Shown here: positions 14,604 to 20,252 of the stretch, one piece after another
Layout of the letters: every line of letters begins with the position of its first letter
How positions within the stretch are numbered: position 1 is the stretch's first letter
NCBI GenBank assembly: GCA_013359255.1
Contig: JABWCF010000003.1
Coordinates: forward strand, 186,001-250,000
Direction: 5' to 3'
Length of the DNA stretch: 64,000 bases
From: Flavobacteriales bacterium
GTDB taxonomy: Bacteria; Bacteroidota; Bacteroidia; Flavobacteriales_E; Vicingaceae
The notes under the pieces: model-generated
Database searches by the model: none
What the model was told of the DNA's origin: nothing
Seen by the model: the letters and a program-made list of their open reading frames with translations, nothing else
Translations under genes and position numbers: made by a program

Positions 14604-14611
14604 TATCTTTG
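14604..14611 (+). promoter_or_regulatory. Bacteroidota-type -7 element (TAnnTTTG)
   Basis: TATCTTTG 27 bp before the ATG at 14638. Confidence 0.5.
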
Positions 14612-14637: not shown

Positions 14638-17600
14638 ATGAAGCATTTACCCCCCCCCATTTTTAGAGTATTAAAAACGACTATAGTTGCGGTATTCGTT
14701 AATGTTACCAGCATGCTCCATGCACAAAACAACAACTCTTGCCAAACGGCAGTAATCCTTTCCGTTGACAGCGTTTGCCATTTTACCTCTCAAAATTTTG
14801 AGCCCGGACAAACCGAAAAATGGACACAATTTAATTCTTTTTCGAATCAAACAATTATAAAACTGGCAGCTAATAATAATCTTTCGGTAGCCTACATAGA
14901 TAGCGTTACGGTATATACCGGCAACTGCACTAATTTGCAATTTATTCAAACATTTTATCCCTCACAACTCGATGTGGACAGTAGTTTTACTGTGAGCATT
15001 AGCAACTTGAGCCCCGGACAAACCTATTATATAGCACTTTATAAAACTATCGGAATGGGCGATGAAGCCATTGATATTTGCACTACATACCCCTCCTTGA
15101 TACCCGGAAACCCGCCTTGCCCTGCTCCCGGAGTGTGCGAAAATATTTTAGCAAACGGAAGTTTTGATTATGCATTTGTTTACACATATTTTTTGGGAGA
15201 TCCCTTTTCAACTTGGACGAATAATGGTATTCCAACCCCGGGTAGTATTTGTTACTGGGAAACAGCTTGGGGTAGTCCTCAGGTTCATTTGGCTTTACCT
15301 TCCACGCCACCTCGCTATGCAGCTATGTGGGCTAATGATGATGAAGGAGAAGCCATTTCAGCTCCTTTAAATATTTCAATGGGAGTGTCTTATTGGCTCT
15401 CCTATAAAGCTAGGCTTATGTTAATGGTGGACAACCTATTTCTATGGCAAACTTAACTTTTATGCTTACGGATGCAAACCAAACTCTATTGCCTTTTGGA
15501 GGTGGCTCAATACCAATTTTTATACCGGGTGGTTCTCAGGTTATTTCTACTACCGGTTTATTACCTTATACTACAAACTGGACTATCTATGGGGCTTGTT
15601 TTACACCCAACGATCCCAACTGGAATCAATTAATAATTTTTCCACAGAATAACTGGAATGCTCAAACTTGGACGAATGTGGATGATATTAGCATTACCCG
15701 ATTAGACGATGCCGGACCGAACGTAAACTTAGTTTGTGATGTCCCTATTCAAATAGGTCCACCTTGTGTTATTCCCGGAGCAACCTACTCATGGAGTCCT
15801 GCTACAGGCTTATCAAACGCTAATGTGCCCAATCCCATGGCTTCGCCATCTCAAACCACCACCTATACTCTTACCATCACTACTCCCGATGGTGCTTGTA
15901 CGGTGTCATCTACCGTTACAGTTACTGTCATTCCTACTCTTACAGTACAACTCGATGGCCCTTACACCATTTGCGAAGGGCAAAGCGTTACCATACAAGC
16001 ACCCCTCGTTACAGGAGGAACACCAAGCTATAATTATTCTTGGAACACCATACCTCCACAATTTACATCTAGCATTACTGTTTCGCCCACCGTTACCACC
16101 ACCTACACCGTTACAGTTACCGATGCTTACGGTTGCATTGGAACGGCAAGTGTTACGGTGTATGTAAACCCCTTGCCTCCGGCTCCTGTTATTACCGGAC
16201 CCAACCCAAGCTGCGATACCTCTTTTACCTGGTGCATCAATAATTTTAATCCCAATTATACTTATGCGTGGTCTGCTCCCAATGCACTTAGCGTTACACC
16301 TACCCCCAACGGGCAATGTGCCGATATTATCTGGAACAATGCCGGTGGTTGGATTAGCGTTACCCTTACCGACCTCAACGGCTGTAACAATACAGGTACT
16401 TTTTATGTGAACGAATGTTGTGTAAAAGAAAGTCCCGAACCCGGCATGACCATTAACCTGATAAACCAAACTGCCTCCTGGCTTATTGCCAATTACCCTG
16501 GCTTTTTTAGCACATTTACTCCGCCTACATTCGACCAAAGCTCGGCATACCTTACTATCAACGGCACCTTTACCATTGATGTACCCTATTTTAAGTTTGT
16601 TCAAATCCCAAACATTTACCTGAGCGAAAATGCCGAAATAATTATTGGCAGCGGAAATCATTTGGAAATGAGGCAATGTACTCTGAAAGCCTGTTCCGAT
16701 AAAATGTGGGAACGCATTTTTATACCTAATGCCAACAGTAAACTTACCGCATACAACTGCCTTTTTATGGATGCCCAACATACCGTTTGGAGCGATAATG
16801 GAGGCGAAATGTTTTTAAACGGTAACACCTTTAAACTAAACAGAGTTTGCGTACAGGTAGAACCCTACAACCAACCTATTATAAGCACTATTGAAAATAA
16901 CCAGTTTATTGGCAATGCTCCACTGAAACAACCTTTTTACGGTTTACGTACAAACATTGGCATTCACTTAAATAAGGTTTACACCACCAATGCCATGGGT
17001 GGTTTTATCATAGGATTAAACAATACTTTTTCCAATATGAACATAGGCATAAACAGCATAGAAAGCATTGTATATGTTTTTGGAAACTCGTTTTCTAACA
17101 TACAAAACTCCCTTTCGGAAGCGGCTATTGCAGCCATAAACATTGCCGGACGCACCCAGTTGCTGTTTACCCCACTGCCCTATGCCGAAATTGGAGGACA
17201 AGGCAACAAAGCCAACACTTTTTTCAACTGCAAAAACGGTATAACGGCCCGTGCTGCCACTAACCTGAAAATAAGCTATAATACCTTTAAAACCATTACA
17301 ACAAGTGGCATTTATTATCAATTTTTCGATAATTTGGTATTTACCTCAAATGTAAATATCTTTAAAAACACTTTTCAGAATAACGGCACTGCCATATACT
17401 CCTACCGCAACTTTTTATGCAAAAGTTCTATTTACAGCAACACCATACAAAGCAATTTAAATACAGGTGCTATTGGCATACGTGCCGAAGAAATGGGTGG
17501 ATCGCCCAACCCCAACCGTACCCAAATTTTTGCCAATACCATTAAGGGGGTTACTAGGGGCATTTGGCTTACAGGTATGGAAGAAACCAAAATAGATAAT

Positions 17601-18912
17601 AATACCATACAAGTTAAAAAATTAGGACTCTTATTAGCCAGAGGTATTGATGTCAGCAATTGCCTGAAAACCGAAATTTCGGCAAACAACATACAATGTA
17701 CGCCACCCACTAATGCAAGCAATGCAGGGGGTATTTATACCAGTCTTAGCCCGGCCAGCAATATTTGTGGTAATGATATTAAAAATCTGGGCTATGCTAT
17801 ACAATGCAACGGACCCCATGGTAAGCAGGGTGGTAGGTAATAAATTTACCAACCTGCCTACAGGTATATGGCTAAACAACGGAGGTATTATAGGGCAGCA
17901 GGGGGCTCCCGGGATGCCCAGCAACAACCGATGGATGACCAATTTTACGAATCATACTTTAACTTCAGGGCTTTCTGATGGGACTTTTTCTCCTATCTTT
18001 TACAGAAATTCTCCTTCATTCTTTGTTCCTTCTAATAATAATATTATTCCTATATCAATTGCAGTTGCTTGTACTTCAACCACAGGTTCCCAATTTGGGC
18101 CTATTTGTCCGGCTATTACCCCACCACCCAATTTACTGTTGCAGGTTGCCAAAGACCAACTTACCTATTCCGGACCCGAAAATCGTTGGCATAGCCGACA
18201 TAATTTATACAGGGAATTACGCTTAGATACCGCATTGCTGCAAAGCGATACCACTTTTACAAACTTCGACTATACCATAAACTACGAAAATACCGGTTTG
18301 TTAGATAGTGTAAAAACCATAGCCACAAACCCTGCTTTAAATAATAATTTGAACCTGCTGCAAAGTGCAAAAACCACGAATAGTGCAGTAAGCCCTTTAC
18401 TGAACACAGAGGACCGGGCAAAAGCCGTAAACAGTATTTTATTAGATATGGCTTTTGCAGGCACTACCTTGCTTACTTCGCAACAACTAAGCATATTGCA
18501 AGGTATAGCAGCCGAGTGCCCCTATACAGAAGGTACAGCCGTGTATGATGCCAGAGTGTTAGTTGCACCTTACGATAGTACGGATTATTTGAATGTTTGT
18601 GAAACGGAATACAGCATAGAGAATAATGGAAGATTTATGCAGCAAGATGAGAAAAGATCCATAAATGAAAAATCTATTTTTGAAATATATCCTAATCCTA
18701 CCGATGATATCTTATACATTAAAGCACATGATAGCACAGAAACTGGGTTAAATGTTTTTATTTATGATATGACAGGAAGATTATTAATTGAAAAAACTAA
18801 CAAGATCGGTTTCTTTGAAGTTAGTGTTGGTCATTTACCCATGGGTATGTATAGCATAAAAATAAGAACGGGCAATACTGTGTACAATAGAAAAATATTA
18901 ATAAATAGGTAG
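14638..18912 (+). pseudogene. Large T9SS-secreted PKD/Ig-like plus right-handed beta-helix protein, apparently one gene split by two frameshifts
   Basis: Three ORFs (14638-15456, 15444-17840, 17713-18912) in frames 1/0/1. Joining them gives a signal peptide, PKD-like domains, parallel beta-helix repeats and a T9SS type A sorting domain (EIYPNPTDDILYI...GMYSIKIRTGNTVYNRKILINR). Confidence 0.85.
14650..14658. repeat. Poly-C tract (C9) inside the coding start of the T9SS cargo gene
   Basis: ATGAAGCATTTA-CCCCCCCCC-ATTTTTAGA. Confidence 0.95.
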
Positions 18913-20017: not shown

Positions 20018-20252
20018 CGTCATTACGAGGTACGCAGTGCCGAAGTAATCTTTTCATTCTTGCTTCATATTAAAAAGATGGCTTCGCTTCGCTCGCAATG
20101 ACGAAAAAGAAAGATGCTGAAACAAGTTCAGCATGACGCAATGCGAGAAGAAAGAAGGTTATTCGGAACTTGTTTCGGAATCTGAGCGAAGGTTTTTATC
20201 ATCCTCTGTTACTTCGAGTAGCCCGAAGCATGAGGGTGTATCGAGAAGGTAT
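20018..20252. repeat. Composite of several intergenic palindromic repeat units
   Basis: CGTCATTACGAGGTACGCAGTGCCGAAGTAATC...GATGGCTTCGCTTCGCTCGCAATGACG (imperfect IR), TGCTGAACAAGTTCAGCATGACG-type hairpin, TTCGGAACTTGTTTCGGAATCT unit, ACTTCGAGTAGCCCGAAGCATGAGGGTGTATCGAGAAGG unit. Confidence 0.8.

Follow-up and report, generated by a model that had tools for sequence, protein, structure and literature searches.

Poly-C tracts in the signal peptides of exported proteins, T9SS type A cargo among them, in a Flavobacteriales genus: comparative evidence for probable slipped-strand phase variation

Some pathogens are well known for switching surface proteins on and off at random. Simple-repeat phase variation has mostly been described in host-adapted proteobacteria, and the familiar device of Bacteroidota is DNA inversion. 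Among the closest described systems, the autotransporter genes nalP and mspA of Neisseria meningitidis carry poly-C tracts of 6-15 bp in their coding sequence; every third tract length is in frame and immunoblot-positive, and some mspA alleles display a premature stop elsewhere, whatever their tract length (PMC3723659). In the opa genes of Neisseria, CTCTT repeats lie in the region coding for the leader peptide and the copies are switched independently by frameshift (PMC3960869). Within Bacteroidota, the FSD adhesins of Ornithobacterium hominis are reported to have a putative phase-variation mechanism (PMC13183296). Searches of a literature collection with few subscription journals turned up no poly-C switch for T9SS cargo.

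The locus considered here lies in a 64-kb stretch of DNA (the window) from a genome of 2.92 Mb in 34 contigs (G000). It was compared with a sister species (G001, CAJPFH01), the sole genome of the same genus included. One window gene reads ATG AAG CAT TTA CCC CCC CCC ATT TTT at positions 14638-14664. Its nine Cs had drawn attention in an earlier note as standing four codons after the start, and they were indeed encountered there (Table 1). The tract occupies the n-region of the signal peptide, ahead of the hydrophobic core, and only length changes in multiples of three leave the frame unshifted before that core. Tract position and frame check bore out the claim that gain or loss of one C would frameshift the protein before its signal peptide is complete. 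The start codon is found 26 nt downstream of the putative promoter box, with the tract ~40 nt downstream of the same box, which places the nine Cs in the translated part. They form the longest C/G run of the window; the next longest are a C7, found once, and runs of six, found three times. Runs of C7 or longer were not exceptional within the window (4 overlapping matches against a mean of 4.5 in shuffles), which is why the case was built on the whole genome and on the sister genome.

Table 1. Positions of the tract, its surroundings and the three open frames of the window gene.
Feature	Position	Strand	Basis or remark
Promoter -7-like box TATCTTTG	14604..14611	+	Bacteroidota TAnnTTTG type; consensus-only assignment
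Signal peptide MKHLPPPIFRVLKTTIVAVFVNVTSMLHAQ	14638..14727	+	Sequence read and homologous N-termini
C9 tract, proposed switch	14650..14658	+	Directly after fourth codon; in frame (ON) at C9
First open frame, N-terminal module, 272 aa	14638..15456	+	ORF list and homologue comparison
First frame change, ORF1 frame to ORF2 frame	15411..15456	+	Three-frame translation; exact point somewhere within
Second open frame, 798 aa, Ig/PKD-like and NosD-like beta-solenoid region	15444..17840	+	
Second frame change	17790..17840	+	Near 17814, window one base longer than ortholog
Third open frame, 399 aa, C-terminal T9SS type A sorting domain	17713..18912	+	

The three open frames together match full-length homologues of ~1,310-1,385 aa in the sister species and are, by this homology, a single gene with two frame changes. 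ORF2 is 87% identical to the sister-species ortholog (L148). The sorting domain of ORF3 (~18685-18906; Pfam Por_Secre_tail, 8e-13) scored 48.5 bits against TIGR04183, whose curated cut-off is 23, and was assigned to type A; the same domain was present in L121 and L123. Genome G000 encodes the T9SS pore SprA (2632 bits) and 116 type A tails. The earlier description of the gene as a large T9SS surface protein holds for the tail on the third ORF and not for its continuity, as the gene consists of three ORFs rather than one open frame. A signal peptide was recognized by eye and from homologues; in the window the two frame changes lie between it and the sorting domain, and in L123 the two are continuous. 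Since the other window ORFs look intact, with ~90% coding, a general assembly problem is unlikely, though possible at the two frame-change sites. The window copy is ON at its tract and interrupted downstream, and probably yields no working product in this assembly. An AlphaFold model of ORF2 displayed only a moderate beta-solenoid (mean pLDDT 54). A PDB sequence match to the Aureispira grappling-hook protein was discarded as functional evidence; it covers residues 108-316 only, before the NosD-like region. Further along the window, a short repeat (~20100-20250) matched many sites of G001, and some of these sites lie on contigs that also carry genes of the window gene's own family (family 1, below).

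Long C/G runs are clearly in excess throughout G000, which holds 30 of at least eight, 19 of at least nine and 7 of at least eleven, against rough expectations, derived from the run-length decay of the window, of ~4.4 for at least nine and ~0.23 for at least eleven. Tracts in the n-region of signal peptides accounted for 9 of the 19 runs of at least nine and for 5 of the 7 of at least eleven. In both genomes C-tracts, mostly C8-C15, occupied this same place in three unrelated families of exported proteins. Family 1, to which the window gene belongs, displays ATGAARYAYTT followed by the tract, with PKD and a T9SS tail in full-length members. Family 2 (KGTFTPPPNYLKISLLCFFMSIFTFSAISQ) gave weak tail-fibre-like matches, and a Pfam scan revealed no T9SS tail in the members that it covered. 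Family 3 consists of Gly-rich proteins (ALK_LTK_GRD).

Runs were also observed outside these signal peptides. A second tract (G9, L034:3482-3490) was found in the coding region of a Gly-rich family-3 gene, where the open frame stops 78 nt on. A C9 just upstream of an ORF of 733-750 aa (L033, G000 C4:114896-114904; L117, G001 C4:81557) was of equal length in the two species, in contrast to the majority of tracts in signal peptides. L038 and L043 in G000 and L119 in G001 change frame at an internal G8-G9 run and are possible further coding-region switches. Poly-C also occurred in frame inside two similar ORFs of ~1,040 aa each (L040, C12; L048, C9).

Genes were scored one by one as ON when the ATG upstream of the tract was in frame with the signal-peptide core; L047, L065 and L126 were left out of this tally because they lacked an ATG or their tract was absent from the contig. 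Eight of the 25 scorable genes were ON and 17 were OFF, which is the one-third expected of random tract lengths. Seven ON genes (the window gene and L036, both C9; L077, CCCTCTCCC; L032, C15; L037, C12; L052, C14; L055, C11) and six OFF genes belonged to G000. The only ON gene of G001 was L123, whose C9 opens a protein of 1,382 aa, as against the C8 of L121, which is OFF with an intact frame of 1,385 codons; the ortholog of the window gene was among the 11 OFF genes of this genome. Non-repetitive Pro codons in place of the tract, which the earlier note would have counted against a switch, were encountered in a single scored paralogue, L077, with its in-frame CCCTCTCCC of the same length. L078, L049 and L054 were interrupted. 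Some copies look locked, for instance L077 in frame and L078 out of frame by its interrupted CCCCTCCC.

The window gene is flanked by atpC and a T9SS type B gene, as is its ortholog L148. The C9 is in frame, whereas the C8 of L148 is out of frame: its ATG leads to a peptide of 11 aa (MKYLPPPFLGH) and a stop, behind which the frame is open for 1,314 codons. Tract length differed in eight of nine syntenic pairs, the comparison being one between species and not between strains or within a clone. Besides the window gene, these were L034 (C9) and L132 (C12), L036 (C9, ON) and L131 (C8, OFF), L037 (C12, ON) and L115 (C10, OFF), L046 (C9) and L127 (C10), both OFF, and the pairs L049/L118, L054/L124 and L047/L121. 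Only L055 and L128 were unchanged, with C11 in both. Flanks of the pairs other than the window's were mostly 87-98% identical. In the same alignments, length differed in one of 20 C/G runs of 5-6 and in five of 36 A/T runs of 7-8 (Fisher, p ~2e-5 and ~5e-5, respectively, against the tract pairs). Since mutability is expected to rise with run length, this comparison shows mutability, not selection; high mutability is nevertheless the property required of a switch. A constant C9, which had been named as grounds for dismissing the idea, was not observed between the species, and the proposal of a candidate phase-variation switch gained support from the OFF ortholog with C8 and intact frame and from the differing pairs. 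Separately, L047 is a deletion remnant of the intact L121, its signal peptide being joined near the C-terminal end, with flanks 98-99% identical.

OFF genes were found to be under purifying selection. The ratio dN/dS was 0.08 over 348 codons between L046 and L127, both OFF, 0.24 over 1,347 codons between L123 (ON) and L121 (OFF), and 0.13 over 622 codons between window ORF2 and its OFF ortholog. Values of 0.08-0.24 show, therefore, that selection acted on the proteins in lineages whose sequenced representative is OFF. Such constraint is the strongest argument in hand for reversible switching, although a low dN/dS could also persist where both genes of a pair had been silenced only recently. 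Of the marks of a slipped-strand contingency locus, the excess of tracts, the frame-toggling length differences and the otherwise intact, constrained frames of OFF alleles (L121, L148, L127 and others) were all observed, the last of them not at the window copy itself, with its two other frame changes.

Taken together, the two genomes offer strong comparative evidence that T9SS type A cargo, along with further exported proteins, undergoes slipped-strand, translational phase variation. The C9 is very probably a translational switch of this type, one of ~25 in the two genomes and in three families of exported proteins. Slippage of DNA polymerase at the poly-C during replication would alter the number of Cs, and one tract length in three would bring the ATG and the signal-peptide core into a single reading frame. 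An ON cell would export the protein through Sec, with subsequent T9SS delivery to the surface for family 1; an OFF cell would make only a short peptide of ~11-22 aa. The state of each cell would be heritable and reversible, and ~25 switches, with at least one family (that of the window) being T9SS type A cargo, could generate combinatorial surface diversity. The advantage might be escape from phage or predators, or altered adhesion. Slippage rate, reversibility, expression and advantage are what we infer in this scheme.

Three other explanations were considered. Programmed slippage on homopolymer runs is known in general, and the tract could be such a slippery site, at which ribosomal frameshifting or transcriptional slippage would give some full-length protein at any tract length. 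The outcome, low constitutive expression in place of heritable switching, would also account for purifying selection on out-of-frame genes; this mechanism has no need for varying length, yet eight of nine syntenic pairs differ; no stimulatory element was noticed, and we consider the mechanism unlikely. Homopolymer errors of sequencing or assembly, with genes constitutively in frame, are a very unlikely source of the tract lengths and frame states. Counting is difficult in runs of at least 12, tracts lie within ~100 nt of the end of several contigs (one contig end, C26 at L065, begins exactly after a tract) and the reading frame of the window gene changes twice more. Many tracts are, however, just C8-C10, the same architecture recurs in two separate assemblies, the remaining window ORFs show no such damage, and length errors cannot account for the clustering of long tracts at a single place in each of three families.

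We regard as highly improbable a reading in which the Cs simply encode an ordinary Pro-rich n-region and the out-of-frame genes are decaying pseudogenes. This would agree with the two additional frame changes of the window gene, with the deletion remnant L047 and with several copies that are interrupted or lack an ATG. Genes OFF in both species nevertheless keep long open frames at a dN/dS of 0.08, no other lesion was found in OFF genes of 1,314 and 1,385 codons, and random decay would not gather first lesions in the C-tract.

Elsewhere in the family, 27 genomes contained 0-10 nine-C words each, compared with 43 and 41 in the two of this genus. Convincing matches to family-1 signal peptides were restricted to this genus, and homologues of family 2 in other genera displayed no C/G run of at least seven in the loci fetched. 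The rarity of poly-C elsewhere in the family and these homologues devoid of tracts make the switch look like an acquisition of this genus. In a different family of the same class, genome G052 contained 191 nine-C words, far above its neighbours; this may be a poly-C-rich lineage or just a different base composition.

The box TATCTTTG recurs in family 1, as seen when the upstream regions of ten genes of families 1 and 3 were lined up. Both families have a promoter-like box and, immediately ahead of the tract, TCATTATGAARYATTT, whereas the proteins that follow differ. Identity between the window gene and L148 was ~94% up to 14679, undetectable to 15945 and ~85% beyond, so that 14680-15945 looks like a swapped N-terminal module with one edge ~20 nt past the tract. 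A tentative reading, which we regard as possible rather than probable, is that a mobile 5' switch cassette, made up of promoter, start codon, poly-C and signal peptide, has been placed before exported passengers with no relation to one another (PKD/beta-solenoid T9SS cargo, tail-fibre-like proteins and Gly-rich proteins), and that recombination also swaps the adjacent N-terminal module. If so, the genus would combine random on/off switching with antigenic shuffling.

As for the slipped-strand switch itself, about a dozen C-tract switches per genome, genus-wide, would show that slippage can diversify T9SS cargo. Hidden surface heterogeneity would be predicted in environmental populations, with a bearing on adhesion and on escape from phage or predators. 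Annotation also calls for caution, as many such genes would be called pseudogenes or be given wrong starts in any single assembly.

Like nalP and mspA, the genes described here carry poly-C within the coding sequence of large secreted or surface proteins, and the mspA alleles with a premature stop resemble the window gene with its extra frame changes (PMC3723659). Unlike these single proteobacterial autotransporter genes, they comprise T9SS cargo and two further families, with the tract in the n-region and with many paralogues. They share with opa a multi-copy family of surface proteins and a frameshift inside the leader peptide (PMC3960869), but the opa repeat is a pentamer and its products are outer-membrane barrels, whereas here poly-C precedes T9SS cargo and families unrelated to Opa. 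With the FSD proteins of O. hominis they have in common the phylum, a large set of paralogous putative adhesins and suspected phase variation (PMC13183296); the protein family is a different one, and the FSD device may or may not be poly-C/G. The putative signal peptide, the Por_Secre_tail sorting domain and the SprA encoded in the genome agree with T9SS type A cargo, for which the literature covered contained no poly-C switch of the kind proposed here. The mechanism is therefore a known one, while its setting, T9SS cargo of an uncultured member of the Flavobacteriales, appears to be new.
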